Positions 11,798-50,823 of a stretch of DNA of 64,000 nucleotides are shown piece by piece. This stretch comes from a virus, in IMG/VR virus record IMGVR_UViG_3300020472_000018, positions 1 to 64,000 of that record; one strand, given 5' to 3'. The notes beneath the pieces were generated by a model. It worked only from the letters and a program-made list of their open reading frames with translations, was not told the DNA's origin and did no database searches. The position numbers and the translations under genes are program-made. Each line of letters opens with the position of its first letter. Position 1 is the first letter of the stretch.

Positions 11798-11798
11798 A

Positions 11799-11805
11799 AT
11801 AAATA
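11799..11805 (+). promoter_or_regulatory. late promoter core ATAAATA
   Basis: AATAAATA lies directly after the gp5 stop codon and 20 bases before the next ATG. It matches the T4 late core at seven positions. Confidence 0.5.
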
Positions 11806-11825
11806 AAAGGGTAAAGTATTAGAAT

Positions 11826-31156: not shown

Positions 31157-34100
31157 ATGCCTCTTAATAAATTAGAAAATTTTATAAAGAATAGTGAAGG
31201 ACGCATTCTTTATGTAAACCCAAATGACCTTGATGCTACTGATGGTATTGAGAATCAGGGAAATTCCCTAACAAAACCTTTCAAAACGATTCAAAGAGCA
31301 CTCATTGAATCTGCTAGATTTTCTTATCTGAAAGGTAATGATAATGATATAGTAGAGAAAACAACTATATTATTATTTCCAGGTGAGCACCTTATAGACA
31401 ATAGACCAGGATTTGGTATAAAGGATGTAAATGGAACTGCTACAGCAATTAGTCCTAGTAGTTCAGAATCTGGAGCACAGAATACTCTTACATTAACTCT
31501 TAATTCTAATTTTGATTTAACGCAAGAGAATAATATACTCTATAAGTATAATAGTACAGAAGGTGGTGTTATAGTTCCAAGAGGAACATCAATTGTTGGA
31601 CTAGATTTAAGAAAGACTAAGATAAGACCTAAGTATGTTCCAAACCCAACAGATGATAATGTAAAACCTACTGCTATTTTTAGGGTTACAGGTGCTTGTT
31701 ATTTCTGGCAATTCTCTATATTTGATGGGGATGATTCTACTTTAGTATATACAGATCCTACTAATTTCTCAACTAGCAATCAATCTAAACCAATATTCTC
31801 TCACCACAAATTAACTTGTTTTGAGTATGCTGATGGTATTAATAAGTTAGATAATTTTGGTGGATTAACTGATTTAGATGTTTACTATAGTAAATTATCT
31901 AATGCTTACAATAGAGCATCTATTAGAGATATTGATGAGAAGTTTCCAGTTGCTTCACAGGGATTTGCAAAATCAAGACCTGAGTATGAAATAGTTGGTG
32001 CTTTTTCTTCAGATCGTATTCAGATACAGAATATTATTTCTGGTGATGGTAATACTGCTGGTCAGGTAGTTACAGTAACTACTGCAGTTCCACACCAATT
32101 AAGTGGTGATACTCCAATTAAAATTGAGGGTGTAAATGAATTAGCATATAATATTTCAACTAAAGTTCAAAATGTTTTAAATGAAACTCAATTTACATAT
32201 TTACTTCCATATGTTCCACCTAACCTGAAAGCAGGTCCTTCTGGTGGATTAAGTGCTGGTAGTGCTGAAGTTAGTGTAGAAGTTGATACTGTTACTGGTG
32301 CATCACCTTATATCTTTAACTGTTCACTAAGATCAGTTCTTGGTATGTGTGGTATGAAGGCTGATGGTGCAAAAGCAACTGGATTTAGATCTATGGTTGT
32401 AGCACAGTTTACTGGTGTTTCGCTACAAAAGGATGATCGTGCGTTTGTAAAATATAATCCTAATAGTAGATCATATGATGGTATTACATATCAGAGACAA
32501 ACTGGTGAGTTATTATCATCTGAAGCATCTTCTTTAAATCAAGCAACTGTTTATCATTTAGATAAGGATGCTGTTTATAGAGATGGTTGGAAGACGGCAC
32601 ATATTACACTAGAAAATGATGCTGTATTGCAGATCGTTTCTGTGTTTGCTATTGGTTATCATATTCACTTCTTAATGAAGTCGGGTGGTGACGCATCAAT
32701 TACAAACTCTAACTCTAACTTCGGTCAGTTTGCTCTTGCTGCTAGTGGATTTAAGAAAGAATCATTTGCAAAGGATAATAAAGGTTATATTACATCTATT
32801 ATTACACCAAAAGCAGTTGTTAGTCCAGAATCTGTAATTGATTTAACTCAACTTGATACTTCTGTAAACCAAGATTATAAAGCTGCTGATAGTTCACCTT
32901 GGACTGATAGTAAGTCTAAACTATTCATGTTGGGGCAAACTAATGGAAATCTTAAACCAACTGATATTGCACAAGGATTTAGAATAGGTGCGAGATTTAA
33001 TGAAAAGATTTATGTAGATTTAGCAAATGGTACTAAAACTGAAGCTACCATTTCTATGTCTAAGAAGACGGGTACTACCACAGTTAATGGTGTAGAGTAT
33101 GATATAACTGCAACAGTAGATATTACTTCTGAAAAGTCATATGAGGGTGTTCATAATGATACCACTCAAGGAAGTGCATCTTTAGTTCATAAATTAACAT
33201 TATCACAACCAAATGGTAATCCACATGATTTAAACAATGGTGAGTCTATAAGGATTATTGCTGAAAGTGGTGATCTTCCAGAAGGAATAGATCCTCATAG
33301 AAAGTATTATGCAATTACTTCTGAAAAGAATGGATCTAGACAGGATAGTATTCAGTTAAGTCAGTGGGAAATTCAGATTGCTTCATCTAAAACAAATGCT
33401 GAAAGGACAACTCCTGCATATATTAAATCTGTTTCAAATCCTGCTGCTGGTAAATTAAAAGTTATTAGTAGAGTTTCTGATAAGAAACCAGGTGAATTAG
33501 GACATCCAATGCAATTTGATGGTGTAAAACAAAATTGGTTTACACACGTTAGTGTTAATAATAATACTATATGGGATAATTTTGCAGATTTAGATGCTAA
33601 TGATGAGGATATTCCATACATTTTAAGGAGAACTGATGATAGGAGTTTAGATGATAAACTCTATAAGATCAGATATGTCATTCCAAAGGAATTAGAAAAT
33701 GCTAGAAACCCTAATGATAGTTTTGTAATTCAAGATTCTAGTTCTACTAATGTAAGATTTGATGCTGACTTTACTAGGACTTCAATTGGATCAACTGATT
33801 ATGATTATCATAGGAATTTAAGATTCGTTTCTCATCTTGATTATAATAGTACCACTAAGATTGTTACTATTAGATCTGATAAATCTCATAATTTAAATGC
33901 AGGTGAGCAAATTATTCTTAAGAACATAACTGATACCATTAATACAAATGGTGCAGCAGATAAGGGATATAATGGAACATTCCTTGTTAATAGTATTATT
34001 AATGATAAAACATTTACTTATAAAACAACTGATGTTTTAGGTAATGTTCGTAATGTAGGAACTTATAATAATGATACTAATATTAGGAATACTGGATTAC

Positions 34101-36844
34101 CTAGATTTGAAAGAAATGATAACAAAGAGAATCTATTTGTTTATAGAACAGAAACAATTCTACCATATGTTGAAGGATCACAAGATGGTGTTTTCCACTT
34201 GTATGTTCTGAATAGTAATAATGCTATAGAAGAAGAATTTACAACTGCAAAATACAATCAGAATGTTGTTAACCTTTATCCTCAATTAGATCGAGATAAT
34301 GTAAATGACAATCCAGAGGAAGCAACTAGTTATGCTAAGAGAAATCCAATTGGTGATGTAGTTACTAATGATCTTAAAAAGAGTATTACTAGAGAAACAA
34401 CTAATAAGTTATTGAATACCTTTGGAATTTCAAATACTATTAGTGATGTATCTGATAATACTACAACTGCTGTTCTAACATTTACAAAAGAACATGATTT
34501 AAATGGTTTAAAATATGGTGGAACTTTACAAGGTGGATCTGGACATACTGATGGTACATATTATAATGTAAAATTATTTGATGATGCATCTGCACCATCT
34601 TCTGCTGTTTGGAAAGGTGCTACTGCTAAAGTTGTTGTTAGTGGTGGATCAGTTACTGAATATGATATAACAGAATCGGGATCTGGATATAAGAGTTCAC
34701 TATCTCCATTATATTTTGATTCATCACTTACAGATCAAGGTGGTATTGGTGGTGCTCCCCAATCAAACATTGCTATTGCTGATGTAAACATTAGTTTAGC
34801 AACTAATAGTTATGTTCAGGTAACTGGTATTAGTACAGGAACTGATAATTATTTCAGAATTAATGATGTTACTGATATTAATAAGATTAATATTAATAAA
34901 ACTGCAAGTGAGGTTATTCTTGAAGGGCAGAGTGTTGTTAGTTTAGGTGAGGTAATTGAAATAACTGGAACTCCTACTCATGTAGGATCTACAAAAGTTA
35001 CTACATTTAGTACTACAAAGGCACATGGATTATCTGAAGGAAATGCTATTAGAATTTTAAATGCTTCTGATTCTAATCTTGGAGACTTTATTGTAGAATC
35101 TGTTATTGATGTAGATACATTTACCGCAGTTACTAGTACTATAGGAATAACATCTCCAAAATATATTCTTAAGCATGGATTATCTGCTAATAATTCACAA
35201 TCTGGAAAGGATGGAGAGAGATTAGGAACAAGAGGATTATCATTCTTTGATAATGAATCTTTAATCTTAAATCAATCAATTACTACTCAAGATGAATTTA
35301 AGGTTACTTTATCCGATGGAACTACAACTGCTGCATCTATTCAAGCAAGATTCCCATTAGGATCATTTATTCAAATTGATAGTGAGATAATGAGAATTAT
35401 CGATGAAACTATCGGTAATCAAACTACAATTAAGGTTATTCGTGGTGCATTAGGTACTATTGTTGATAATCACGTTATTAATTCTCAGATTAAGAAGATT
35501 AAACCACTTCCTGTTGAATTAAGAAGACCTTCTATACTTCGTGCATCTGGTCATACCTTTGAATATCTTGGTTATGGTCCAGGTAACTACTCAACTGGTT
35601 TACCTCAAGTTCAACTTAAGACTCTAACTGAAAGAGAAGAATTCTTATCACAATCACAAGAAATGTCTTGTGGTACTGTTGTTTACACAGGTATGAATGA
35701 TAAGGGTGATTTCTATATTGGAAACACTAAGATTTCATCTGACTCTGGTGAGCAGATAACATTTGATATTCCAGTTCCAACTGTAACAGGTGAAGATCCA
35801 AGTACACTTAGTGTTGTATTTGATGAAGTAATCATTAAAGATAGACTACTTGTTGAAGGTGGTGCATCTAAACAAATACTATCTCAGTTTAATGGTCCAG
35901 TTACATTCAATGGAAATGTAAGATTCAATAAGGATCTTAGAATTACTAAGAAATTAATTGTTGATGGTGAAAGTAGATTTACTAATGGAACAGAAGCTAC
36001 ATCTGCATGTGGTGGAGTACCATCTGGTGGTGTAATTATTGAAGGTGGTATTTCTATAGGTAATAAGTTATCTACCTCACAAAGAGCAATAAGTGTTCTT
36101 GAGGGTAATGTTAGTTTATGTAATACTACTGACAGTACAAGTGTTGATTCAGGATCTTTCATTACAGATGGTGGAGCTGGATTTGCTAAAAATGTACATA
36201 TTGGTGGTATTCTAGATGTTAGTGCTAATATTAATGCTGATGGTGGTTTACATTTACCCGATAATGATGTTTTAACTGCTGGTGCAACTGCTTCCAATTC
36301 TCACTTTGCTATCTGGCACAATGTTAGTGGTTCAGGTACTCGTACCAATATTATCAGAGATAATACTGCTGCAAACATATACATTCAGAGTGATGCTAAT
36401 GTTGAGATAACCAACAAAAATAATACTGAGCAAGGTTTAATTTATACTGCTGGAGCAGGTATTCAATTACGACATCAAGGTCAACTAAGACTTGAAACTA
36501 ATTCTAGTGGAATTAAAGTACATGATGATATAGAAGCTATAGGTGATATTACTGCATTCTTAGCTTCTGATAGAAGATTAAAGGATAATATAACACCTAT
36601 TCCTAATGCTCTTAAAAAGGTTCTTTCAATTAGTGGTAATACATTTGATTGGAATGAAGCATCTAAGAATGAAGGTAAAGGAGATACTGGTGTAATTGCT
36701 CAAGAGATTGAAGCATTAGATTTACCTGGTGTAACTACTATTAGAGATGATGGTACACACGCTGTTGCTTATGAAAAACTTGTTCCTCTCCTAATAGAAG
36801 CAATTAAGGAATTGAATTCTAAAGTTGATGCTTTTCATTCATAA
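31157..36844 (+). CDS. giant fibre/baseplate protein (VrlC/gp10-like) with S74 auto-chaperone
   Basis: 1895 residues. The start (NFIKNSEGRILYVNPNDLDA, then KPFKTIQRALIESARF) and MCGMKADGAKATGFRSM near 400 are typical of the giant cyanophage structural proteins annotated VrlC- or gp10-like. Near 1460-1550 it shares the HTFEYLGYGPG and KGDFYIGN module with 12354. The last 92 residues form a Peptidase_S74 intramolecular chaperone: S1804 and K1809 in SDRRLKDNI, then DTGVIAQEIEALDLP and VAYEKLVPLLIEAIKEL. In this family the domain trimerises the fibre and is cut off at the Ser. It has its own late promoter. Confidence 0.75.
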   Translation: MPLNKLENFIKNSEGRILYVNPNDLDATDGIENQGNSLTKPFKTIQRALIESARFSYLKGNDNDIVEKTTILLFPGEHLIDNRPGFGIKDVNGTATAISPSSSESGAQNTLTLTLNSNFDLTQENNILYKYNSTEGGVIVPRGTSIVGLDLRKTKIRPKYVPNPTDDNVKPTAIFRVTGACYFWQFSIFDGDDSTLVYTDPTNFSTSNQSKPIFSHHKLTCFEYADGINKLDNFGGLTDLDVYYSKLSNAYNRASIRDIDEKFPVASQGFAKSRPEYEIVGAFSSDRIQIQNIISGDGNTAGQVVTVTTAVPHQLSGDTPIKIEGVNELAYNISTKVQNVLNETQFTYLLPYVPPNLKAGPSGGLSAGSAEVSVEVDTVTGASPYIFNCSLRSVLGMCGMKADGAKATGFRSMVVAQFTGVSLQKDDRAFVKYNPNSRSYDGITYQRQTGELLSSEASSLNQATVYHLDKDAVYRDGWKTAHITLENDAVLQIVSVFAIGYHIHFLMKSGGDASITNSNSNFGQFALAASGFKKESFAKDNKGYITSIITPKAVVSPESVIDLTQLDTSVNQDYKAADSSPWTDSKSKLFMLGQTNGNLKPTDIAQGFRIGARFNEKIYVDLANGTKTEATISMSKKTGTTTVNGVEYDITATVDITSEKSYEGVHNDTTQGSASLVHKLTLSQPNGNPHDLNNGESIRIIAESGDLPEGIDPHRKYYAITSEKNGSRQDSIQLSQWEIQIASSKTNAERTTPAYIKSVSNPAAGKLKVISRVSDKKPGELGHPMQFDGVKQNWFTHVSVNNNTIWDNFADLDANDEDIPYILRRTDDRSLDDKLYKIRYVIPKELENARNPNDSFVIQDSSSTNVRFDADFTRTSIGSTDYDYHRNLRFVSHLDYNSTTKIVTIRSDKSHNLNAGEQIILKNITDTINTNGAADKGYNGTFLVNSIINDKTFTYKTTDVLGNVRNVGTYNNDTNIRNTGLPRFERNDNKENLFVYRTETILPYVEGSQDGVFHLYVLNSNNAIEEEFTTAKYNQNVVNLYPQLDRDNVNDNPEEATSYAKRNPIGDVVTNDLKKSITRETTNKLLNTFGISNTISDVSDNTTTAVLTFTKEHDLNGLKYGGTLQGGSGHTDGTYYNVKLFDDASAPSSAVWKGATAKVVVSGGSVTEYDITESGSGYKSSLSPLYFDSSLTDQGGIGGAPQSNIAIADVNISLATNSYVQVTGISTGTDNYFRINDVTDINKININKTASEVILEGQSVVSLGEVIEITGTPTHVGSTKVTTFSTTKAHGLSEGNAIRILNASDSNLGDFIVESVIDVDTFTAVTSTIGITSPKYILKHGLSANNSQSGKDGERLGTRGLSFFDNESLILNQSITTQDEFKVTLSDGTTTAASIQARFPLGSFIQIDSEIMRIIDETIGNQTTIKVIRGALGTIVDNHVINSQIKKIKPLPVELRRPSILRASGHTFEYLGYGPGNYSTGLPQVQLKTLTEREEFLSQSQEMSCGTVVYTGMNDKGDFYIGNTKISSDSGEQITFDIPVPTVTGEDPSTLSVVFDEVIIKDRLLVEGGASKQILSQFNGPVTFNGNVRFNKDLRITKKLIVDGESRFTNGTEATSACGGVPSGGVIIEGGISIGNKLSTSQRAISVLEGNVSLCNTTDSTSVDSGSFITDGGAGFAKNVHIGGILDVSANINADGGLHLPDNDVLTAGATASNSHFAIWHNVSGSGTRTNIIRDNTAANIYIQSDANVEITNKNNTEQGLIYTAGAGIQLRHQGQLRLETNSSGIKVHDDIEAIGDITAFLASDRRLKDNITPIPNALKKVLSISGNTFDWNEASKNEGKGDTGVIAQEIEALDLPGVTTIRDDGTHAVAYEKLVPLLIEAIKELNSKVDAFHS

Positions 36845-36870: not shown

Positions 36871-38901
36871 ATGGCTAATATCAAGAAGGCATTCAATTTC
36901 AGAAATGGTGTCCAGGTTGATGATGACAATCTGATCGTAAATGCAAATGGCTTGGTTGGAGTGGGAACTACCGTTCCGACTGAGGCTTTGGATGTCCGAG
37001 GTAAAGTCAAAGTAATTCAAGATCCAAATGTTGTTGGATCTGGTTTGATAAACGCTACATCTGGTATAATTACATCTCTTACTGTAACAGATACTTTAAT
37101 TGTAAATTCAAGTAATATAAGTTCTGGACAAGTTGGTGAAGGTGTTGCTGTAGGATCTCCTGCTGGAATTGTAACTGCTACTTCTTCTGGTATTGTTACT
37201 TATTATGGAGATGGTTCTAGTTTAGATGGTTTACCAACATCTCAATGGGATAATGTTGATGTTGGGTTAGGATATACAAGCATATATGCGAGGGGTAACG
37301 TAGGTGTGGGGACTGTAGATCCTCGATTTACCCTCCAAGTTGGTGGAAATAATGGTTTAACTCTTGTTGATGGTGTAGGAATTAATTCTACAGGTGGTAT
37401 ATTAGCAACTGGTGTTGTTACTGCTACTACTTTCAAAGGAAATGTTAGTGGAGATATATCTAGTGGTTTATCTACTATTACTCAACTAGAAAATACAAAT
37501 ACGAATACTGTAGGTGTTGTAACTGCTGGATCTGGATTTGTTGGTGATTTAACAGGTAATGTTACTTCTGGTAATAGTGCTCTTGGTATTGCAACTGCAT
37601 CTAGCCTTGATGTTAGTGGTAGTGTAACTGGTATTGCATTTACTGGTCCTTTATCTGGTAATGTTACTGGTAATGTTACTGGAGATCTTACAGGTGATGT
37701 TACTAGTGGTTTATCATCTATTACTAGAATAGAAACTACTTATATTAATTCTTCAACAACAACTGGTGTTGTTACAACAGGAAGAGTTATTGCTACAAGT
37801 GCTAACTTAGGAATTTCAACTGCTTCTACTTTTAATGTATCTGGTAAGTTGGGTGTAGGTATTAATGCACCTGAACATAATGTAGAAGTTTATAGTGCAG
37901 GTATATCTTCTGTAACTGTTATTGGACAAAGAAATTCAGTATTATCTCTCTGCCAAAGAATTCCACCTACTACTGGTGTAGGTGATAGTATGGGTGGTAT
38001 TAGATTTGGTAATGAAGCTAAATCTTTTGATATATTTAATGGTGATACTGGTAATATTAATCAGTATTTGCATCTAGGTGCTTTTGTTGGTGTTAATACT
38101 GGAAATTATAACTGGTATCATAGATCAACTACCAACTTGATGACTCTTACTTATGATGGTAAATTAGGTATAGGTAAGTCTCAACCAGATTCAAAACTGG
38201 ACGTAGTTGGTGTATCATCCTTTACAGGAAATGTTTCTGTAATTGGAGATTTAGAGGTTACTGGTGCTTTTACTGGAACTGCTTCTATTCCTGATATTAT
38301 AAATGGATCTAATATTAATTCAATATCTGGTATTTCAACATTTAATAAGTTAAATGTTGCAGGTAGTGTTGGTTTATCTACTTTAGCAATAGGTGTTGCT
38401 ATTGAAGATACTAAAGCAAATATTGATGCAAGAGGAAGTACTGCATTAATTAGTAGAGTTGCTATTGGAGCTTCAATAGAAAATATTGGTGATAGTAATG
38501 TATTGGTAGGTGGTCCTGCAAACTTTGCTTCTGGTATAGGTATTAACACATCTCTTACTGGAATAACATCTATACGTGTTGCTGATACTCCGATTGATAT
38601 TGGAGCATCAAATATTACTCTTGATCGTTCAAACCTTATCTTAGAGAATACTTCTGGAATTGTAGTAAAAGGTGAAGGTAATGTTGGTTCTGGTGTAGCA
38701 CAACCTAGAGCAGCAGTTGACTTTGGTGATGCTGGAAATATTTTAGGTAGGTATGTAATTTTACCAAGAGTAACTACTACTGAGAGGGGTAATCTTACCA
38801 ATATAACTAGTACTGGAGTTGAAGCTGGAGCATTGATTTTCAATACTTCAACTAATAAGTTCCAAGGTTATACTGGAAGTACTTGGGTTGATCTACACTA
38901 A
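36871..38901 (+). CDS. long tail fibre protein
   Basis: 676 residues, starting MANIKKAFNFRNGVQVDDDN. It is made of fibre motifs G-[VI]-G-x-x-x-P-x-x-x-L-x-V (VGVGTTVPTEALDVRG, GIGKSQPDSKLDVVG) alternating with strands such as GNVTGNVTGDLTGDVTSGLS. The C-terminal 70 residues (LPRVTTTERGNL, FNTSTNKFQGYTGSTWVDL) are a common trimeric fibre end. It is a structural fibre, probably a shaft or hinge part; the T4 equivalent (gp34-gp37) cannot be assigned. Confidence 0.7.
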   Translation: MANIKKAFNFRNGVQVDDDNLIVNANGLVGVGTTVPTEALDVRGKVKVIQDPNVVGSGLINATSGIITSLTVTDTLIVNSSNISSGQVGEGVAVGSPAGIVTATSSGIVTYYGDGSSLDGLPTSQWDNVDVGLGYTSIYARGNVGVGTVDPRFTLQVGGNNGLTLVDGVGINSTGGILATGVVTATTFKGNVSGDISSGLSTITQLENTNTNTVGVVTAGSGFVGDLTGNVTSGNSALGIATASSLDVSGSVTGIAFTGPLSGNVTGNVTGDLTGDVTSGLSSITRIETTYINSSTTTGVVTTGRVIATSANLGISTASTFNVSGKLGVGINAPEHNVEVYSAGISSVTVIGQRNSVLSLCQRIPPTTGVGDSMGGIRFGNEAKSFDIFNGDTGNINQYLHLGAFVGVNTGNYNWYHRSTTNLMTLTYDGKLGIGKSQPDSKLDVVGVSSFTGNVSVIGDLEVTGAFTGTASIPDIINGSNINSISGISTFNKLNVAGSVGLSTLAIGVAIEDTKANIDARGSTALISRVAIGASIENIGDSNVLVGGPANFASGIGINTSLTGITSIRVADTPIDIGASNITLDRSNLILENTSGIVVKGEGNVGSGVAQPRAAVDFGDAGNILGRYVILPRVTTTERGNLTNITSTGVEAGALIFNTSTNKFQGYTGSTWVDLH

Positions 38902-38913
38902 AGGGAATCATTA

Positions 38914-41900
38914 ATGGCAAGAAAGAATTATCAGGTCAAGGCTAAAGATGGTACTTGTTGGCAAAAGATACATCATTTTCTATGTTGTACAACTTATAAT
39001 GAATTAAATATTCCAGATCGTGAGTGTCTTTGTAAAGATGATGCTAAGTATGATGAAACTATTGGTACATATCAATTATCTCTTGCAGAAGCAGAAGAAT
39101 TAAGAAAACACCCAGACATTCAATATGTTGAATTAGATTCCACATTCCATGCACATGAAATGGGATCTAAAGGTGGTCATATGAATGAAGATATAGAATG
39201 GCATTCTAATAGGTTTGGTAAGAATGTAAAAAATTATAGAGATTTGCATTACGTTCCTGATACTCCACAGTTAGTTCAGAGTTCATTGATGACTATTACT
39301 GGTCAGTCGGGTCAAGGAACTACTAATTGGATTAAAGTTAAAGATGTGCATCCTAATACTGATGCACTGAATTATTGGCAGTTGGTGGGATTTCCTTTGA
39401 TATATGATTATGCTGTATATCCAAGTGCCCCTACAAATGCTAATGATCCTGATCCTTTAAGAAATTCAACTCAGACTGGAAGTAATCTTATTACCATCTC
39501 ATCTACAGGACCTTATCAACTTTTTGTAGCAGCAGATGGTGAGTATGCTTCTATAGAGTGGATTAGAGATGATGGATATAAAATTTTCCCAGATTTAACT
39601 TCTGGTCGAAGACAGTATCCTGCTAATACTATGGATCTAATACCAAACATACCTGCAGGAATGGAGAATTTTTATAGTGGTTGGAATGGTAGAACTGATG
39701 GAAAAACAGGTACAACTAAAGAAATTATAGATTCTTCTCTTTATTGGGGAATAAAATATCAAATCATTAATTTAGGTATTTTAAAAGCAGGAACCCATAC
39801 AATTACTTATCAAATAAGAAATGGTAGTCATGGTGATCCTAATAAAGAAGATTGGAATAATAACCCTGGTGGAATTGCTTGGCAGATTTATAGTATGGGT
39901 GGATACACTGCGGATTATTATACTCAGCAAGGTATTTCGGGAGATTATAAGAGTTATGTATCAGATGTAAATTATATAATTGGTACTTCAACTTGGGATT
40001 CTGCAGAATGGAATAGAACTGGTTATCAATTATTGAGATGTCAAGAAAGTTCGACTACTAATCCTTGGGCAAGTAGTACTCGTACAGTTAAAAATCAAGA
40101 TATTCAATATACAAATGATGGTTTAGATGTTGATGTAGTAGTAACAGATAATGGACATTGGTTTGCACATCCAGAATTTTGTACTGGTGAGAATGATCCA
40201 CCAAACTATATTTCAGGTAATGTATTAAATCGTTCAGGTAAATGTGGTGTCTTGGATATGATTTTAGACGCACCATATTATCTTGATCCTGAATGGTTTG
40301 ATTCAGATCCTTCTAATAGATTAACTACTCGTTGGGATGGTACAAGAGTTCCTGTAGAAAGTGTGGCAAGAGCTTGGTGGTATAGTGCATCACTTAGATC
40401 ACGGATATCAACAGGACAATCATACGATTTTCCTGATTTTGGTGGTTTTGCTATCTCTGCTACTTATACTAGAGCATATTGTAATGGTACTAAAACAAAT
40501 GTTCCATCAATTTTTTCTCGTGGTGATCATGGAACTCCTTGTGCTTCCCAAGCTTATGGTAAGAATTATGGGTGGGCTTTTAATGCTAATAAGTGGTCTA
40601 TTACTTTGTGGGCCGTAACTAGTACAGTTACTTATAGAGTAACTCAAATATTTCATAAGCATAAACCAAATAATCCTAAGTTTAATACAAAAAATCCAAC
40701 AATTTCATCTAATAGTTGGGGGAAAACGAGTAGAAATCTTTTGGATAATGATGATGTCTATACTTATGAATATAGGGGAACTGCGTATGGTCAAACTGAT
40801 CAGAATATAAAGGATGGGGTTTCTATACCTGGTGGAGTTTCTAAGATTCTAGATATCCCACACTTTATAAAGCAAGGTGGTGGACGTGAAAGTATATCTT
40901 ATCTAAACACTTTTACTCCAACCCCAGATCAAACCTTTATTAAACTTCCTTACTCTAGAGGACAGTCTTTGGAAGCAGGAGAGGAGAATGCTTTAAAAGC
41001 TGCTATTACTGAGGGAGTTATCTTTTCTTTTTCTTCTGGTAATCAGGCATTTTATCTTACACAAGAAGGTGATGTGGATCATAATAATAAAGTGATTAAA
41101 GAAAATGGGACAGAATGGTACATTCATAGAGCTCCTTATCCAATGGGAGTAAAGGATGATTCTGGTTATGATTTATTTTCTATTGGTGCTATTGATAATG
41201 AATTAAAAAGTAGATGGTCATTAACATCTGACACGATTTTTAAGGATAAAGGAACTGGTACAACAAGTAAATATCAAAACGATAATATTGAGACTTTAGC
41301 TAGAGGCAGTGCTGGAAAAAAAGTTCTTAGTGCTGCTGGAAATAATGATTTAAAATTTGCAGAATGTGGGATGGCTAATATTGAATCGATGGTGGACAGT
41401 GAGGATTATAGTAATAGAGGAAATCATATAGATTTTTATGCTCCTGCTGATGGTACACTAGCTGCAGATATTGCAATTAATTATGCTACTGATACACAAA
41501 ACCCCTCTACTGGAGGTGATGGACCACACCGTATGGAGATAGTTAGAGGTGAAATAGTCACAGGCAATAATCGTTTTTGTGACACTCAATTTAGTGGAAC
41601 TTCCTCTGCTTGTCCTGTAACTGTTGGATTACTGGCTTGTGCTATGCAGCAGAATAGAGGTTGGTCTTGTACTCAATTAAAAACATATTTAAAACAACAA
41701 ATTTCTCCAGAAACTAGTAGTACTTTTTATCTAGGATATGAACCTGGATCAAATCCAGACTCTTTGAAATGGGCAGCTGATTTTACTACAAATGAAACTG
41801 ATGTTAGAATAATTAGAGAGATTTCTGGTTCAAAAACAACACCTAATCCAGTTTATGAAGCAACTAGTGGATTAGCTCCATCTAGACCAAATTTAAATGA

Positions 41901-44900
41901 AAGGTTTAGTGTTACTTCTGGTTCTGCTAAAGTTAAGATTATTGGAATTAGAGAATTTACAGGTTCTGACGCTGGAAATCCTGTTGAATTAAGAATTGGT
42001 AATGGGTATTATTTGATGCAAATTACAACAGATACAGCATATTCGTATGGTAGTTTTGCTAATACAACAATAGCAGGTTATAAATTTAAAATTAAAGAAG
42101 GTAGTAATGATCAAGTTATTCAAGTAAGCGATAATAATGGATCATCTTGGACTGCTCTTGAAATAAGTACTGTAAATGGTAATTTTGTAATCGGATCTCA
42201 AGGTGAAGTATATTACTACTTAAATGTTGATGATAGTGTAGGATTACCTGAACAACCCTCTAATCCAACTTATGTTATAAATCTTTCTCCTAGTACTAGT
42301 GTTAATGAAGGTAGTACGCTTGTTACTACTATTACTACTACAGACGTTGATAGTTTTACTCCTTTATATTGGAGATTAGATGGAGCAGGAATTAATAGTT
42401 CTGATTTCTCTTCAGGATCATTAACTGGATTTGGAATTGTTAATAGTCAAGGATCATTCCAGTTTAGTCATACTCTTGCTAACGATTTAACTACCGAAGG
42501 AACACAAACTCTTAATGTAAAATTATTTACTGATAGTTCAAGGCAAATACAGGTTGCTACTACTTCTATTCAAATTATTGATACATCTATTTCTTCATCA
42601 TATGCAATATCTCCTACAAAAACTACTCCAAATGAAGGGGAAACTTTTTCATATGGTATTGGAACATCAGGTGTTGCTAATGGTACTACTTTATATTGGG
42701 AAATAACTGGAAGTGTTATGTCCTCTACCGATTTTACTCCTTCTTCTTTAACTGGTAGTGTAACAATTAATAATAATGGTGCTGCTGTTACTAAAACTAT
42801 TAGAGAAGATTTAGTCACAGAAGGTAATGAGAGAATAATTTTTAAAGTATATACTGATGCTGGTAGAACAAACGAGGTTGCTAGTAATAATTCTGTAGTT
42901 ATTCAAGATACATCAACAGCTCCTACTACACCTACCTATACTATTACTCCTTCAAATACTACTCTGAATGAAGGAGATACTCTTACAACAAGTGTAACAA
43001 CGCAAAATGTTTCTAATGGAACTACTCTTTATTGGTTAATAGATCAACATACTGGAGCAATAAACACATCTGATTTTTCTAACGGAATGAGTGGATCTGT
43101 ATCAATTAATAATGGTTCAGCTAGCTTTACTAACACCATTGTTGCTGATAATTTAACTGAGGGTGAAGAAAAATTTGCAATTAAATTATATACTGATTCT
43201 GGTCATACTAATAATGTAGCAAATACATCTACAATCACAATTACTGATACTTCTCAATCTAAAACTTATAGTCTTTCTGCAAGTAGTACAACTCTAAATG
43301 AAGGTTCTACTGTTACTACAACAGTAACAACTACTAATGTTTCTAATGGAACAGTTTTATATTGGGAACTATCAGGAACTGGTATAACATCTTCCGATTT
43401 CTCGTCAGGATCATTAACTGGATCTGGAACTATTAATGCACAAGGAACTTTTAATTTTAGTCATACTCTTGATAATGATGTAACACTTGAAGGAAGTGAA
43501 ACTATTGCTGTTAGATTATATACCGATTCTGGAAGAACAACTCAGGTTGGTAATACACTTAGTATTATTGTTAATGATACTTCTATACCTCAAGCAACAT
43601 ATAGTATAAGTCCTAATCCAACATCTGTAAATGAAGGTTCTTCATTCACAACAACAGTAACAACAACTAATGTATCTAATGGAACTACTTTATATTGGAG
43701 ATTAGAAGGTACTAATATTGATGGTAATGATTTTTCTACAGGAGCATTAACTGGATCTGGATCTATATCTAATAATACATTTAACTTTACTCATACTCTT
43801 GCTAGTGATGCAACAACTGAAGGAAGTGAAACCATTGCAGTTAAATTATATGTAGATTCTGCAAGAACAGTTAAGGTTGCTGAGGCTAGTGTTACTATTA
43901 ATGATACATCTCAAACTCCTTCAACACCTACTTATGTTATATCTCCATCCAAAACTTCAATAAATGAAGGAGAAACTCTTACAACTACAGTTACTACAAG
44001 TAATGTTGCTGATGGAACTACTTTATATTGGCAATTAGATCAGCATACTGGATCTGTAAGTGCTGCTGATTTTTCTTCAGGTGCTTGGAATGGTGCTGGT
44101 ACGACATCAAGTAGTCAATTTACTTTCCAACATACTGTTGCTGCTGATACAACAACAGAAGGAGAAGAAAAGTTTGCGATTGTATTAGCTACTGATGCTG
44201 GTTTTAGTAATATTGTAGCAACTTCAACAGTAATTACAATTAATGATACTTCAACTGATTCTGCTACTCCTACATATTCACTTTCTTCAAATTTAGATCC
44301 AGTTAATGAAGGACAATTCCTTTCTATTACAGTAACAACTACTAATGTTGCATCAAATACAACTTTATATTGGCAATTTAGTGGTACAAATATAACTGCA
44401 TCTGATTTTAATGAAGGAATTTTAGAAAGTAATATCGTTACTGATGCTACTGGTTCTAAGGCATTTGGTACTACTCTTAGAAATGATATTCTAACAGAAG
44501 GATCAGAAACTATGATGGTTAAGTTATTTACTGATTCTGCAAGAACAACTCAGGTTGGTAATACACTCAGTATTACTATTAATGATACATCAACATCTCA
44601 AGCACCAACCTATAGTATATCTCCAAGTGTAACTCAGTTGAATGAGGGGCAATCATTTACAACAACAGTAACAACAACTAATGTTAATGATGGAGTTACT
44701 TTATATTGGATAATAGATGAGCATACTGGAACTATAAATGCTGGTGATTTTTCTTCAGGTGCATTAAGTGGATCTGGAAATATTTCTAGTGGTGGTTTTG
44801 CTTTCTCTCATACTGTTGCGGAGGATGCTACAACAGAAGGAACAGAGAAAATTGCAATTAAATTATATACAGATTCTGGTTATACTAATAATGTAGCAAA

Positions 44901-45342
44901 TACATCAATAATTACAATATTTGATACATCAACAACTTCTAATCCAGTTTATGTTTTATCAACACCAGAATCTATTATTAGGGAAGGTGATACATTTACA
45001 ACAACAGTAACAACAACTAATGTTGTAGATTCTACTGATCTTTGGTGGAAATTAGAAGGTATTAATTCAAGTGATTTAACAACTGGATCTATTGAAGGAC
45101 AAGGTACTGTTATTTCTAATACGTTTAGTTTCTCTCATGCTCTTGCAAAAGATATGGCTGAAGAGGGTACAGAAATTATTCAGATAAAATTATTCAGTGA
45201 TTCTGCTAGAAATAATCAAGTTGGTAATACTCTTGGAGTTACTGTTAAGGATACATCTCAACCAGGATTTAATGTTGACGTAACAGCACCTAACAATAAT
45301 GAATATATATTAATAGGAAATGATACAGACGGAACTATCTAG
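38914..45342 (+). CDS. virion-associated subtilisin-like protease with Calx-beta-like repeats
   Basis: 2142 residues. About 45-85: inhibitor-I9-like propeptide (LAEAEELRKHPDIQYVELDS). About 400-930: S8 protease with the full triad: D412 (VDVVVTDNGHW), H539 (GDHGTPCASQAYG), S897 (FSGTSSACPVTVG) and probable oxyanion N710 (FSFSSGNQ). The domain has large insertions. About 1120-2115: nine repeats of about 110 residues (NEG...TTTV, GTTLYW, DFSSG, TEG-x-E). The last residues (FNVDVTAPNNNEYILIGNDT) are the start of a cupredoxin-like domain that continues in another frame in the next ORF. Roles in fibre maturation or host-surface cleavage are inferred. Confidence 0.75.
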   Translation: MARKNYQVKAKDGTCWQKIHHFLCCTTYNELNIPDRECLCKDDAKYDETIGTYQLSLAEAEELRKHPDIQYVELDSTFHAHEMGSKGGHMNEDIEWHSNRFGKNVKNYRDLHYVPDTPQLVQSSLMTITGQSGQGTTNWIKVKDVHPNTDALNYWQLVGFPLIYDYAVYPSAPTNANDPDPLRNSTQTGSNLITISSTGPYQLFVAADGEYASIEWIRDDGYKIFPDLTSGRRQYPANTMDLIPNIPAGMENFYSGWNGRTDGKTGTTKEIIDSSLYWGIKYQIINLGILKAGTHTITYQIRNGSHGDPNKEDWNNNPGGIAWQIYSMGGYTADYYTQQGISGDYKSYVSDVNYIIGTSTWDSAEWNRTGYQLLRCQESSTTNPWASSTRTVKNQDIQYTNDGLDVDVVVTDNGHWFAHPEFCTGENDPPNYISGNVLNRSGKCGVLDMILDAPYYLDPEWFDSDPSNRLTTRWDGTRVPVESVARAWWYSASLRSRISTGQSYDFPDFGGFAISATYTRAYCNGTKTNVPSIFSRGDHGTPCASQAYGKNYGWAFNANKWSITLWAVTSTVTYRVTQIFHKHKPNNPKFNTKNPTISSNSWGKTSRNLLDNDDVYTYEYRGTAYGQTDQNIKDGVSIPGGVSKILDIPHFIKQGGGRESISYLNTFTPTPDQTFIKLPYSRGQSLEAGEENALKAAITEGVIFSFSSGNQAFYLTQEGDVDHNNKVIKENGTEWYIHRAPYPMGVKDDSGYDLFSIGAIDNELKSRWSLTSDTIFKDKGTGTTSKYQNDNIETLARGSAGKKVLSAAGNNDLKFAECGMANIESMVDSEDYSNRGNHIDFYAPADGTLAADIAINYATDTQNPSTGGDGPHRMEIVRGEIVTGNNRFCDTQFSGTSSACPVTVGLLACAMQQNRGWSCTQLKTYLKQQISPETSSTFYLGYEPGSNPDSLKWAADFTTNETDVRIIREISGSKTTPNPVYEATSGLAPSRPNLNERFSVTSGSAKVKIIGIREFTGSDAGNPVELRIGNGYYLMQITTDTAYSYGSFANTTIAGYKFKIKEGSNDQVIQVSDNNGSSWTALEISTVNGNFVIGSQGEVYYYLNVDDSVGLPEQPSNPTYVINLSPSTSVNEGSTLVTTITTTDVDSFTPLYWRLDGAGINSSDFSSGSLTGFGIVNSQGSFQFSHTLANDLTTEGTQTLNVKLFTDSSRQIQVATTSIQIIDTSISSSYAISPTKTTPNEGETFSYGIGTSGVANGTTLYWEITGSVMSSTDFTPSSLTGSVTINNNGAAVTKTIREDLVTEGNERIIFKVYTDAGRTNEVASNNSVVIQDTSTAPTTPTYTITPSNTTLNEGDTLTTSVTTQNVSNGTTLYWLIDQHTGAINTSDFSNGMSGSVSINNGSASFTNTIVADNLTEGEEKFAIKLYTDSGHTNNVANTSTITITDTSQSKTYSLSASSTTLNEGSTVTTTVTTTNVSNGTVLYWELSGTGITSSDFSSGSLTGSGTINAQGTFNFSHTLDNDVTLEGSETIAVRLYTDSGRTTQVGNTLSIIVNDTSIPQATYSISPNPTSVNEGSSFTTTVTTTNVSNGTTLYWRLEGTNIDGNDFSTGALTGSGSISNNTFNFTHTLASDATTEGSETIAVKLYVDSARTVKVAEASVTINDTSQTPSTPTYVISPSKTSINEGETLTTTVTTSNVADGTTLYWQLDQHTGSVSAADFSSGAWNGAGTTSSSQFTFQHTVAADTTTEGEEKFAIVLATDAGFSNIVATSTVITINDTSTDSATPTYSLSSNLDPVNEGQFLSITVTTTNVASNTTLYWQFSGTNITASDFNEGILESNIVTDATGSKAFGTTLRNDILTEGSETMMVKLFTDSARTTQVGNTLSITINDTSTSQAPTYSISPSVTQLNEGQSFTTTVTTTNVNDGVTLYWIIDEHTGTINAGDFSSGALSGSGNISSGGFAFSHTVAEDATTEGTEKIAIKLYTDSGYTNNVANTSIITIFDTSTTSNPVYVLSTPESIIREGDTFTTTVTTTNVVDSTDLWWKLEGINSSDLTTGSIEGQGTVISNTFSFSHALAKDMAEEGTEIIQIKLFSDSARNNQVGNTLGVTVKDTSQPGFNVDVTAPNNNEYILIGNDTDGTI
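42271..45262 (+). repeat. nine tandem Calx-beta-like repeats (about 330 bp each)
   Basis: Repeat starts lie near 42271, 42600, 42937, 43264, 43597, 43930, 44270, 44608 and 44947. Each codes for Y-x-[IL]-S, x-NEG-x, TTTVTTTNV-x-GTTLYW, DFSSG, a F-x-F-x-HT strand and TEG-x-E. Copies 3, 6 and 8 have a DQHTG/DEHTG variant, suggesting duplication of a multi-repeat block. Confidence 0.85.
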
Positions 45343-45347
45343 GAATA

Positions 45348-48300
45348 ATGCCAAGTAATCCAGAAGTAAGAATTAAAGAAGGTGAGAGAATTAATTTTCA
45401 TGTAGATGCAACGGGTCATCCGTTCTACATTAAAACAACAGATACAACAGGAAGTGGAGATTTAGTTAATGGTGTAATTAATAATGGAGCAACTGATGGT
45501 ACGGTTAACTGGACACCATCACTTGGAGCTGCAGGAACTTATTATTATAAGTGTGGTAATCATGCTGCAATGGGTGGAACCATTACAGTATTAAGTGTTG
45601 CACCATTACCAGGATATAATATTGATGTAATAGCACCAAGTAATACTGGGTATAATCTTTCAGGAACAGATAGAAATGGTTCAGTAAATGGTAATGATGT
45701 AGATGTAACTATTAGGGAAGGAGATAGAGTTAATTTTTTAGTAAATGCTTCAGGGCATCCATTTTATATTAAAAGTGATCCTGTTACTGGAACTGCTAAT
45801 CAAATAGCAGGTGTTAGCGGTCAAGGATCTGAAACACAAACAGTTACTTGGATTGCTCCAGCAGGATCAACAGGAACTTATTATTATCAGTGTGGTAATC
45901 ATGCTGCAATGGGTGGAAAACTTATAGTACAATCATCAACTGGTAGTACTAATCCTGGTAATAGTAATAAAGTATCTAATGGTGGTCCTCTTACACAACA
46001 TCAGAGTGGACCATATTTTGATGTTGAGAAAGCAGGTCCTTATTTTACAGGTAGTGTTCCTATTAAATGGAGCAAGATGAGACAATATTTTAAAGAAATA
46101 TATCCTGTTAATAATGCAGTTCCTGTTTCTGCATCAGAGATGAAAAGGAATACTAATGTTGATGAATTAGATCCTATTGTTCCAAATTCTACTGAGAATG
46201 AACAGATAGCAGCTACTACTGAATTTAATTGGAAAGCATCTCAAATGAGAGGTTCAATTAAGAGATATTATGCAGATCAAAGATCTAATGCCACAGAATT
46301 GAGTATGGCTAGATTTACTGGTGGTAATGGTATTGATTGGTCAAATGGTGGAACAAGTGGAGTAGATAGTACTAATAATTCATATGGAAATATAACAAGA
46401 AATGTTCAGAAAATTACATTTCTGGATATGATAAGTGGAAGTGGTGATACTGGTAATAATGGTACAGTAGGTGGTGGGGGAGTAGGTAATGATAAAGTCC
46501 CTGCTGCTAGATTAACGCCAAGTAATCCTATACCTGCAAATAATTTTAGGATTCAAGTTGATGGTGCGATTTATGGATCTGCTGGTAGAGAAGCATTATT
46601 TAATTATGCTACTCAAACAGATAAAACTAAGAGTGATCCAGGTAAAGATGGTGGTACTGCGTTAAAGATAGTTCATACAGGAAATACTACTCAAGTATAT
46701 GTTGGTAATAATGCCAAGATTTATGGTGGTGGAGGTGGTGGAGAACAGGGTGCAATGGGATATATCCATCCTGATGGATTGGATGCGATGAAAGGTATAT
46801 GTGATAAAGAATATGCTGCTAATGCAGCTTGTGGTGCAACTCCAGGTTGTGATGGTGGAGATACTTTAATAGCACAGGCAAGTGGTGGATGTTGTAGATA
46901 TGGTCCTGATTGTATTGATAGTTGGTTTGGAACTTGGTGTACTACTGTTTGTAAGGCAAATTGGCAAACTGGAACTTGTTTAAATTCAGTTCCTTCTGAG
47001 AATCCAATCCAAGGTAAAGGTGGAATGGGCGGCTGGGGTGCTGGATATGGATATACACAATGGGTTGGTGGTGGACCTCAAAATGCAAAAGCTGGAGAAG
47101 ATGGTACTGAAGGTGGTTGTCCAACTTGTTTATCTGGTGCTGAACTTAGAGTAGATACTGGACTTTGTTCTACTGATGGTGGTAAAGGTGGAGATGGTGG
47201 TGATTATGGTCAACCAGGACAATCAACTACTGGTATAGATGGTGATGGTGGTAAAGCTGGTGCAGCTATTTGCGGATCTCCATTTGTACTTGGTGGTAAT
47301 ATTAGTAATAGTTCAATAAAAGGAAGATATGATGGACCTTGTGAAGGTGCAGGTTCACAACCAGCACCAAATCCTGATGCTCCTACAGTAACAATCGGGG
47401 CTCCTTACTATGTAAGATTTAAGGAAAATCCTGTTAGTCATTTAATGGTTAGTGGTCCAGGTACTTGCGACTTCAGGATGAAACATAGTTGGACTGATAA
47501 AGCTGATAAAGGATATGCGTTGGATAGTATGTCATTTGGTGGATTTGCTCAAACTTTTGCTGCTGGTAGAGCATACTGGGGTAGATCTTATGACAATCCA
47601 ATATCATATGCTATGGATGTTGCTTGGTCTCCGTTTATGAGAGAATATGCAGTATTCCCTGCATCTTCAAATGGAGGAACTCCAACTGATTGCTTACCAG
47701 ATCAAGCTCAAACCGCAGTTTATAGATTTAATGTTACTGGTGGTGCTAATGCTTATACATTTAAAGCACAGGCAGATAATAATGCAAAATTCTCTATAAA
47801 AGGACCTACTTTCCCTGGAGGATTTCCTTTAGGTGAAGTAGAAACATTTAGTAATCCTACTTCTGATTTTATAAGAGTACCAAACTTTACGTTGGCTGCA
47901 GGACAATATGATTTAACTGTAACAATAACAAACTCTTCCTTCCCTCCAGGACAAGAACCAGCACCAGGTGCTAATAATAATTGGTATTATAATCCAGGTG
48001 GTGTTGCTTTCTGGTTACAAGGTCCTGGTGATACTGATGAATCAGATGAACTTTCCGAAAGAGATTGGACTTGTTGTTCATTAGATTTCACTAAAATACA
48101 AGAAGATGGTGTGTTTATGAGTGATGTTATCTCTTTACCTGAAGGGGAATATCCTATTACATGGACTGGTTTAAATGCTACTAATGGCACTACTTATCCA
48201 AATCCAAATCAACTATCAAATAATACTAAAAAGATTATATTATTTGATAGTCATGGTACTGATGCTAACCAGACTTTTGAGTTATGGCATCCAACTTTAG

Positions 48301-48509
48301 ATGTACCTTATACAGCTGCTGCTATGACTTGGAATGTTAGTGGACAGGTTACTAGAATATTTGGATCATCTAATCCTAACGATCCAACATTCTCTTTACC
48401 TGCTAGTTCTTCTGGTACTACTACAATGAGTCCAGAGAGAACAACAACTTATACTGTAAATGCAACTGGTCCTGGTGGTACAAATAGTAAAAACTGTACG
48501 ATTAAGTAA
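45348..48509 (+). CDS. cupredoxin-containing fibre protein, probable continuation of preceding ORF
   Basis: 1053 residues. Two cupredoxin-like domains open it: H24, C69, H72, M75 and H137, C182, H185, M188 (GHPFYIK, then YYYKCGNHAAMGG), with amicyanin-like C-x2-H-x2-M spacing. The first lacks its N-terminal strand, which lies at the end of the previous ORF in the +1 register; the two ORFs are 5 bases apart. About 220-330: a fibre motif (VPIKWSKMRQYFKEIYP). About 460-650: Gly-rich with a Cys-rich patch (SGGCCRYGPDCIDSWFG). The end resembles an Ig-like domain. It overlaps the convergent methyltransferase gene by 8 bases. Confidence 0.65.
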   Translation: MPSNPEVRIKEGERINFHVDATGHPFYIKTTDTTGSGDLVNGVINNGATDGTVNWTPSLGAAGTYYYKCGNHAAMGGTITVLSVAPLPGYNIDVIAPSNTGYNLSGTDRNGSVNGNDVDVTIREGDRVNFLVNASGHPFYIKSDPVTGTANQIAGVSGQGSETQTVTWIAPAGSTGTYYYQCGNHAAMGGKLIVQSSTGSTNPGNSNKVSNGGPLTQHQSGPYFDVEKAGPYFTGSVPIKWSKMRQYFKEIYPVNNAVPVSASEMKRNTNVDELDPIVPNSTENEQIAATTEFNWKASQMRGSIKRYYADQRSNATELSMARFTGGNGIDWSNGGTSGVDSTNNSYGNITRNVQKITFLDMISGSGDTGNNGTVGGGGVGNDKVPAARLTPSNPIPANNFRIQVDGAIYGSAGREALFNYATQTDKTKSDPGKDGGTALKIVHTGNTTQVYVGNNAKIYGGGGGGEQGAMGYIHPDGLDAMKGICDKEYAANAACGATPGCDGGDTLIAQASGGCCRYGPDCIDSWFGTWCTTVCKANWQTGTCLNSVPSENPIQGKGGMGGWGAGYGYTQWVGGGPQNAKAGEDGTEGGCPTCLSGAELRVDTGLCSTDGGKGGDGGDYGQPGQSTTGIDGDGGKAGAAICGSPFVLGGNISNSSIKGRYDGPCEGAGSQPAPNPDAPTVTIGAPYYVRFKENPVSHLMVSGPGTCDFRMKHSWTDKADKGYALDSMSFGGFAQTFAAGRAYWGRSYDNPISYAMDVAWSPFMREYAVFPASSNGGTPTDCLPDQAQTAVYRFNVTGGANAYTFKAQADNNAKFSIKGPTFPGGFPLGEVETFSNPTSDFIRVPNFTLAAGQYDLTVTITNSSFPPGQEPAPGANNNWYYNPGGVAFWLQGPGDTDESDELSERDWTCCSLDFTKIQEDGVFMSDVISLPEGEYPITWTGLNATNGTTYPNPNQLSNNTKKIILFDSHGTDANQTFELWHPTLDVPYTAAAMTWNVSGQVTRIFGSSNPNDPTFSLPASSSGTTTMSPERTTTYTVNATGPGGTNSKNCTIK

Positions 48510-48906
48510 AGAATAATTCAACTCCAATAGGTTCACCAAAACTATAATCATATTCTAAAGCATCTGCACAAACATAATGTGGGTGATCTATTGATACGTC
48601 TAGACGTTCACATATTTCTTTATGATTATCTTCCATTAATTCTATGCAATAAAGCATATTATCTAGTACGTGATCGAGATTATGATACTTAACTAATTCA
48701 TCTCTTAACTCAACTAGAAAGTTACCAGAACCTGCAGAGTTATCTAAAAACTTTGACTTTGGGTTCTTTCTAGTTTCTAATGGTATTCTTTCTATCATTT
48801 CTCTACAGATCTCAGGAGGTGTAAAGACTTCTTGAGTTTCTGCTATTCTTTCATCAGATCTTTCTATACTAGATCCTGTTTCTTGATTGTGTTTATTCTT
48901 TGCCAT
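48502..48906 (-). CDS. N6-adenine methyltransferase, truncated (AdoMet-binding half)
   Basis: 134 residues. It opens with a polar segment then EVFTPPEICREMIERIP, the entry motif of HsdM-like adenine methyltransferases, and motif I D55-N-S-A-G-S-G-N-F63, followed by a motif II acidic residue (YCIELMEDNH) and VCADALEY (motif III). It stops before the catalytic NPPY motif, at GEPIGVELFFT, exactly where it meets the 3' end of the fibre gene. It is therefore a 3'-truncated enzyme or half of a split one; the neighbouring gene at 49486-50823 has NPPY but a poor motif I. Confidence 0.7.
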   Translation of the reverse strand: MAKNKHNQETGSSIERSDERIAETQEVFTPPEICREMIERIPLETRKNPKSKFLDNSAGSGNFLVELRDELVKYHNLDHVLDNMLYCIELMEDNHKEICERLDVSIDHPHYVCADALEYDYSFGEPIGVELFFT

Positions 48907-49499
48907 TAGTGTATGTAAGTAGAGATAATATATTTTTTAGATTTGAGGGGTGGGCATCCACGATGTATGAAATTCCATACGGCAGGAAACATAACTAGCT
49001 TTCCCACAGTTGGAGTAACTAATGTTCCATCTGCAAATTCTGTATGACCACCACCATCATTTGTTAAATCATTTAGATAGTATAGCATAGCAAACATTCT
49101 AGGATGATCTTCTTGGGTATTATCATTATGCCAATTAAAATATCCACCTGGTTCGTAACTTTTTACATTATAACCTGCATCTTCAAACTTACAACTTCCA
49201 AATGGAGTTGGTACTGGATCTAGTTGATTAAAACCTTCATAACAATGATCGAGATAGTTTTGTATATTTTCTGAAACATTTTTTGAAAGTATATTATCAA
49301 TGTCTTTCCATTCTTTAAAGGGACTAATAAAAAGATCTTCAGAATCTTTTAGAGTTTTATCAACAACTAATTGACCTCTTCTTAGTATATGACCTGCTTG
49401 TTTTCTATCATCATTTTCAAATCTATCAATAATTTCTTTACACAGATCTTCTGGTAAAGCATTATTGTTAGTATAGATGTAATCTTCAAACTTTATCAT
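48906..49499 (-). CDS. 2OG-Fe(II) oxygenase
   Basis: 197 residues with the full iron-binding set: H-x-D in GGYFNWHNDNTQ, a strand RMFAMLYYLND, GGGHTEFADGTLVTPTVGKL, distal His in FIHRGCPPL and a basic residue after it (KSKKYIISTYIH). The spacing fits the prolyl-hydroxylase-like 2OG-FeII_Oxy family. It starts inside the last codons of the upstream methyltransferase gene (14-base overlap) and ends at the start of the next, so it is co-transcribed with them. The substrate is unknown. Phage-encoded members have been proposed to act on host proteins, nucleic acids or virion proteins. Confidence 0.75.
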   Translation of the reverse strand: MIKFEDYIYTNNNALPEDLCKEIIDRFENDDRKQAGHILRRGQLVVDKTLKDSEDLFISPFKEWKDIDNILSKNVSENIQNYLDHCYEGFNQLDPVPTPFGSCKFEDAGYNVKSYEPGGYFNWHNDNTQEDHPRMFAMLYYLNDLTNDGGGHTEFADGTLVTPTVGKLVMFPAVWNFIHRGCPPLKSKKYIISTYIH

Positions 49500-50823
49500 A
49501 TGCCTCCATATATGCTTTGATTATTTTATTCTTGCCACAGTGACCTCTACCATTAGTATCTGCTTTAGCAACTTTCCGTAAAGTTGGTTCGAGATTTACC
49601 AATCTCTCTACAATCTCTGGTTTTGCTTTAATAAAATTATGTCCTTTTGCATAATGAGTAAAATCTTTAGTTAAAACTTTACCAGATGGGCCATCACCAA
49701 ATTCTCCAATAAAAACATCTGCGTCAAATCTGTCTTCATATTTTAAGAATTGGAAATCTAAATGTGTTCTATATACTGGAATTAATTTTCTATTACAATT
49801 TCTTACTTCCCACTCTTGAATACACGCATCAATTCCAGTAGGAAAACATTTAGGATCAACATCTTCACTAGATTTGCAATGTAGATCGAGATTTACCAAA
49901 TTCATATTGGAATCACCTTTAAGTGATCTTGGTAAAACTAAGAGGATCTGTCCATTTTCACCTACTTTCTCTCCTGATTTATTCAAGAAACTAACTGCTA
50001 GTTTACCACCTGTACCATAAGGAGGATTACCAATGATTGCATCAAATTTCATGTGTTTTCCTTTGAATTGATTTTGGGTGATACGAGTTATATATTCTGG
50101 ATTATCAATAAACTCATCTTTAGCAAAATATTTGTATGCTTGATCTGTAAAGAGATTGGTGAATCCCATTTTTGTTATCAAATAATTGCAAAAGTGTCCA
50201 TGAGCATCTTGTGGAATGTATATTCTAGCATCTTTTGGTAAATCTTTCAACCTTTCACATAGATCAAATATTACTTGACGATCAGGGATTCTGTGCATAT
50301 CATCTTTTCTTTTCTTTGAGTTCTTCTTAGTAACTAATGGAGAGAATCCTGTATCTTTTTGATAGGTTCTATAATAATTATCCATTCTCTTTACCAGTTC
50401 ACCAATATTATGAACTGCTTGAGACCAATTAGTCTCTAAAGGATTTACTCTTAGTTCTGGTGAACCACCAAAAGGATTTGTTTTACTCCATCCAATCTTT
50501 CTCATTTCTTCCCGAACATCATAATCACTAAGATCAGGATGTACTTCCCATTTAGCAAGTAGATTAACAGCTTCTGGACATTTGGAATAATCTCCATCAG
50601 TGAATCGAATTAAATTATTTCCTATCGTTCTTTCGGTTAAGGTTTCACCAACATACAAAGGTAAACCAAATTTAGTATAATCTGGGTCACCAAGATCATA
50701 CAATCTCACTATTGATGGAAATTGATGAACGTAAATTGTATTTGTTTTTTTGGGAACTTCTTCTTGCTCTTTAAAGAATGGATCAACCTGTTCTTGTATA
50801 GCAGCGACTAGTCCATTAGTCAT
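49486..50823 (-). CDS. N6-adenine methyltransferase-like protein with NPPY motif
   Basis: 445 residues. Catalytic motif IV NPPY at 266-269 (FDAIIGNPPYGTGGK), then GQILLVLPRSLKGDS and a C-terminal recognition-like region. The expected AdoMet-binding motif I before it is degenerate (YIPQDAHGHFCNY at about 201-215, no G-x-G). The N-terminal 130 residues (TIYVHQFPSIVRLYDLG, LPLYVGETLTERTI, DVREEMRKIGW) may be a T5orf172/GIY-YIG-like domain; I am unsure. It is the first gene of a leftward three-gene operon diverging from the promoter at 50982. Confidence 0.65.
   Translation of the reverse strand: MTNGLVAAIQEQVDPFFKEQEEVPKKTNTIYVHQFPSIVRLYDLGDPDYTKFGLPLYVGETLTERTIGNNLIRFTDGDYSKCPEAVNLLAKWEVHPDLSDYDVREEMRKIGWSKTNPFGGSPELRVNPLETNWSQAVHNIGELVKRMDNYYRTYQKDTGFSPLVTKKNSKKRKDDMHRIPDRQVIFDLCERLKDLPKDARIYIPQDAHGHFCNYLITKMGFTNLFTDQAYKYFAKDEFIDNPEYITRITQNQFKGKHMKFDAIIGNPPYGTGGKLAVSFLNKSGEKVGENGQILLVLPRSLKGDSNMNLVNLDLHCKSSEDVDPKCFPTGIDACIQEWEVRNCNRKLIPVYRTHLDFQFLKYEDRFDADVFIGEFGDGPSGKVLTKDFTHYAKGHNFIKAKPEIVERLVNLEPTLRKVAKADTNGRGHCGKNKIIKAYMEAYDKV

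Follow-up and report, generated by a model that had tools for sequence, protein, structure and literature searches.

A subtilisin-family protein with a repeat stalk in the tail-fibre cluster of a marine cyanophage, and its possible role as a proteolytic tail spike

The plus-strand gene at positions 38914-45342 of the virus record IMGVR_UViG_3300020472_000018 encodes a protein of 2142 residues that we propose, with a probability of roughly one half, to be a proteolytic tail spike or tail fibre whose subtilisin-family head acts on host surface proteins. The stretch analysed here (the window) comprises the first 64,000 nucleotides of this record, itself incomplete at 75.9 kb, and comes from a marine cyanophage related to P-SSM2, to which it stands closest in gp5 (73% identity) and in another tail protein (70%). 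The protein is a member of peptidase family S8 with a complete, invariant active site and a long array of repeats, and its gene stands within the tail-fibre cluster, where the initial annotation had placed it with exact coordinates and length. In the mechanism that we favour, an I9-like N-terminal domain would probably aid folding of the protease and inhibit it until cut or displaced, the repeat stalk would keep the protease head at a distance, and the phage would cut picocyanobacterial surface proteins during attachment, making the protein a proteolytic counterpart of the polysaccharide-degrading tail spikes. We infer that the enzyme would be active, that its propeptide would be released and that its substrate would be a surface protein.

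The catalytic domain spans residues 363-960 (positions 40000-41793). A Pfam scan of the full-length protein did not report S8, even at E<=1. With the repeats removed, the match was recovered: residues 1-1112 hit the S8 family with an E-value of 8.7e-11 (42.1 bits, cut-off 21.8), as do 31 of the 36 aligned sequences. A search of PDB sequences with the full-length protein returned no credible match; a profile of 16 family members, searched against the same sequences, picked out aqualysin I (2.5e-18), whose D, H, N and S blocks align in register with those of the family. AlphaFold models residues 1-1112 at a mean predicted local distance difference test score (pLDDT) of 61; the catalytic core is well predicted and superposes on aqualysin I (4dzt) with a Z score of 26.0 and a root-mean-square deviation of 2.3 over 267 residues. 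The triad proposed at the outset was found residue for residue: D412 in the motif TDNG (codon 40147-40149), H539 in HGTPCAS (40528-40530) and S897 in SGTSSACP (41602-41604); the oxyanion Asn is N710, in SSGN (41041-41043). Homologues were collected from viral contigs (40 loci) and from phage records (8 S8 loci, then 3 more), and the conservation alignment takes in P-SSM2, S-SCSM1, S-CREM1, S-RSM4 and S-H38. Among the homologues covering each site, the Asp (55/55), His (55/55), Asn (51/51) and Ser (50/50) are identical throughout; loss of the triad in homologues had been named beforehand as a finding that could overturn the prediction. The resemblance to the proteinase K-like S8 enzymes (aqualysin I, proteinase K) extends over Pfam family, triad, oxyanion Asn, fold and I9-like N-terminus, whereas the window protein differs from them by large insertions in the catalytic domain, the repeat stalk, the phage tail-gene setting and the lack of an apparent signal peptide. 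An active, self-activated protease is a plausible reading of the sequence. As a separate observation, C543, four residues past the catalytic His, covaries with C900, three residues past the catalytic Ser (C/C in 37 sequences, V/S in 5); the idea that C40, in the N-terminal domain, forms a disulfide with either of them was dropped because C40 does not covary with this pair.

The N-terminal domain (residues 1-81, positions 38914-39156) bears on how such an enzyme might be controlled. Its Pfam I9 score lies just below the cut-off (E 0.0013, 19.8 bits against 21.2), 9 of 26 sequences match I9 at E<=0.1, and its best PDB sequence matches are subtilisin prosegments at non-significant E-values (0.08-0.16). 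In the model, residues 4-74 follow a prosegment-like strand-helix-strands-helix-strand order with good local confidence, and an I9-like N-terminus was found in all homologues examined. The I9-like propeptide of the initial annotation is therefore supported as a domain, at a sub-cut-off Pfam score, with a putative role as propeptide or chaperone. A different use of the same parts would be a locked protease in the manner of PCSK9, which processes itself once, keeps the I9-like domain bound and employs the head as an adhesin. The invariance of the triad and oxyanion Asn would also be compatible with such a single self-cleavage, PCSK9 is among the structural matches, binding modules surround the head, and the I9-like domain is nearly identical between the window and its closest relative, L002. 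PCSK9, however, matches as a subtilase, and general proteases rank above it; we consider this alternative clearly unlikely.

Between the I9-like and catalytic domains lies a beta-rich insert (residues 113-362, positions 39250-39999), present in L002-L005 but missing from most other homologues. Pfam finds no match in it, and a structure search of the whole model against viral proteins (BFVD) gave over the insert only weak rows named PA14, from phage PA14-domain proteins. The S-TIM54 homologue (L044, 14998-21417; 2140 residues) has an esterase-like (BD-FAE/COesterase) domain before S8, in the place corresponding to the insert, and Ig domains after it.

A linker (residues 961-1115, positions 41794-42258), modelled at low confidence and free of confident Pfam matches, connects the catalytic domain to the stalk. 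The latter consists of nine repeats of about 110 residues each (residues 1116-2113, positions 42259-45252) with a mean pairwise identity of 47%. A single repeat is modelled at a pLDDT of 93, and its top Foldseek match is the Calx-beta domain of NCX1. The Z scores nevertheless tie with those of complement/TEP MG domains (Calx CBD1, 10.2; TEP1, 11.1; C3, 10.4), the Pfam Calx-beta score of 22.2 bits stays under the cut-off of 27, and a PDB sequence search with the repeat profile gave no credible match. Compared with known Calx-beta domains (NCX1 CBD1, Drosophila Calx), the repeats share the predicted Ig-like beta-sandwich and the EG and D..EG.E motifs. There is fair support from the model for an Ig-like, Calx-beta-like fold, and we do not file the repeats under the Calx-beta family; the count of nine and the likeness of fold that had been claimed both stand. 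One copy of the stalk repeat also occurs in the P-SSM2 protein T4-GC122 (L047, 14812-16269), encoded beside the terminase genes.

A place for the protein in the virion tail is strongly, if indirectly, suggested by its relatives. First, two homologues (L006 and L007) are S8 proteins that end in an S74 domain, which serves trimeric tail fibres and spikes as an intramolecular chaperone. Second, the S8 gene of S-CREM1 and S-H38 lies between tail-pin and baseplate-wedge genes, and that of P-SSM2 and S-RSM4 among or beside fibre genes. In the window, the tail-fibre gene two upstream of the protease (phrog_529; 31157-36844, plus strand) has an S74 chaperone domain, and the gene directly before it (36871-38901, plus strand) encodes a tail protein of phrog_3269, similar to a gene found beside some homologues. 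Third, the record of the S-SCSM1 homologue is marked '(virion protein)'. The S-SCSM1 paper gives 45 proteins as detected by mass spectrometry, ORF213 and ORF214 by name (PMC9602691). Since these two are marked in the same way and the hub and head-completion genes nearby are not, the tag appears to stand for detection by mass spectrometry. Taken together, these relatives argue strongly for a location of the protease in the virion tail. They also speak against an intracellular or lysis-stage protease acting outside the virion, as do the stalk repeats; inspection by eye shows no evident signal peptide, in keeping with such a protease, which we nonetheless hold to be very unlikely.

In a comparison with L002, the ratio of nonsynonymous to synonymous differences per site (pN/pS) is 1.05 for the whole protease gene; the fibre gene two upstream has 0.09, the preceding gene 0.50 and the following one 0.39. 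Residues 113-960 hold about 100 nonsynonymous and 18 synonymous changes, a nonsynonymous excess over the neutral expectation with P values of 0.02, 0.004 and 0.0006 at transition/transversion ratios of 1, 2 and 4, and the repeats show no such excess. The changes in the head include V568T, T569N, S570A, T573N and Q711E. Positions 568-570 and 573 fall in what we take, from a sequence alignment with aqualysin and from the general subsite roles of subtilisins, to be the S3-S4 loop, and position 711 directly follows the oxyanion Asn. Alongside an invariant active site, the divergence of the head would fit a diversifying substrate preference. It would be unexpected, in the loop as in the insert, for an enzyme with a fixed internal substrate, that is, for an assembly protease whose task would be the processing of itself and of adjacent fibre or baseplate proteins as the tail matures, with none at the host surface. 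The embedding of the gene among fibre or baseplate genes agrees with an assembly protease, yet a conserved neighbour is missing at many loci and a maturation enzyme need not persist in the virion, and we regard it as rather unlikely.

Several points weigh against a diversifying, virion-borne protease at the host surface. The signal of selection derives from a single sequence pair, the span 113-960 was picked after inspection of the data, and the substrate-loop positions were placed through sequence alignment. The synonymous divergence (pS) of the protease gene is 0.031, lower than the 0.126 of the fibre gene two upstream, which hints at recombination. As regards the tail, the S74 domain is absent from the window protease in a Pfam scan, and the '(virion protein)' tag of S-SCSM1 comes from a GenBank note.

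The gene that follows (45348-48509, plus strand), in the same tail region, encodes a protein of 1053 residues with two tandem N-terminal cupredoxin-like domains (positions 45357-45590, residues 4-81, and 45645-45929, residues 100-194; Pfam Copper-bind 29.2 bits, cut-off 21.2). These domains carry a C-x2-H-x2-M motif, and an apparent type-1 copper motif can be read in the gene as GHPF ... CGNHAAM. A cupredoxin-like domain lies inside the protease protein itself in L020, L021, L023, L025, L032 and S-TIM54, while many other loci encode it next door to the protease; in all, it is fused or adjacent to S8 in 19 of 32 non-redundant loci. Placements within one gene of S8 number 21 where 8.5 are expected, a value reached in none of 5000 permutations. 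Being fused or adjacent more often than random placement would give, the two domains may be in a working partnership; for an assembly protease, the cupredoxin could conceivably be a partner substrate. The C-terminal modules as a whole are swapped among relatives, with repeats in the window protein, LamG in S-SCSM1, Ig in S-TIM54 and cupredoxin in L020 (for L004, L005 and L035, Pfam assigned no domain to the C-terminal part). It is tempting to speculate, at somewhat less than even odds, that marine cyanophages use virion-borne subtilisin tail spikes on exchangeable stalk, lectin-like or cupredoxin-like modules, that these would cut host surface proteins, and that their substrate loops diversify against the host.

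A further proposal of the initial annotation, that the virion protease opens the envelope in place of a missing tail lysozyme, found no support. The window gp5 hub indeed lacks a Pfam lysozyme domain, and neither of the two genes preceding it has the glucosaminidase or VanY domain of its S-SCSM1 counterpart; their products show no significant similarity to the S-SCSM1 proteins. However, S8 enzymes act on protein, and peptidoglycan is not a substrate for a subtilisin-type enzyme; a Pfam scan of the window protease found no muralytic, lysozyme-type domain; and the record is incomplete. Moreover, the isolate P-SSM2 has a hub protein of the same length and 73% identity together with an S8 gene of its own, so the lack of a lysozyme domain in gp5 is not peculiar to the window phage, and S-SCSM1 has an S8 protein in addition to its glucosaminidase and VanY proteins, so that the two kinds coexist there. 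We therefore find this role scarcely likely at all.

The S8 domain itself is not new in cyanophages, where it is already on record and in many cases annotated. A search of phage records with the P-SSM2 protein retrieved 47, all from cyanophages or uncultured marine viruses, and the family reaches P-SSM2, S-SCSM1, S-RSM4, S-CREM1 and S-H38; a scan of genome contigs gave only five weak loci, on contigs of marine metagenome-assembled genomes or single cells. The P-SSM2 and S-SSM7 members are recorded as T4-GC292, 'contains PF00082', the genes of S-SCSM2R, S-H38, S-WAM2 and S-CREM1 are annotated 'subtilisin-like serine protease' or 'peptidase S8', and an S8 peptidase (T4-GC518) is common to P-HM1 and P-HM2 (PMC3037559). 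The earlier remark that such a protein has no standard role in T4-like phages holds for T4, but in the T4-like cyanophages S8 genes recur and have been annotated repeatedly. Among open-licence papers we found no functional study of a cyanophage or virion S8 or subtilisin tail protease. The annotated cyanophage proteins share with the window protein a homologous I9-like and S8 core, the four catalytic residues in those aligned and the baseplate or fibre setting, but they measure about 550-760 residues and have no stalk, whereas the window protein, at 2142, has the extra insert and the nine repeats. Some loci carry more than one S8 gene: L012 has two adjacent S8 genes in tandem (7908-10232 and 10249-12612), and a second, more divergent S8 gene is present in L015/L016.

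The closest functional parallel would be with the capsular and O-antigen tail spikes and the S74 endosialidase-type fibres, with which the protein is proposed to share the logic of a virion-borne enzyme working on the host surface; the S74 chaperone of the latter is present in the two homologues mentioned above and absent from the window protein. Known path-clearing tail enzymes mostly degrade polysaccharide, and the window protein differs from these spikes in being a protease and not a polysaccharide hydrolase or lyase. The phage receptors of Prochlorococcus and Synechococcus are poorly known. If a proteolytic tail spike is indeed what the gene encodes, this would point to surface proteins, and not to lipopolysaccharide alone, as barriers or receptors in these hosts, and since the isolates P-SSM2, S-SSM7 and S-SCSM1 carry family members, the proposal is directly testable.

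Beyond the tail genes, methyltransferase-like and 2OG-Fe(II) oxygenase genes follow directly after the fibre cluster on the opposite strand (48502-50823, minus strand). Further on, the window contains a gene of the tryptophan-halogenase family (53387-54574; Pfam E 3.8e-30) and then an N6/N4 DNA methylase gene (54579-55544).

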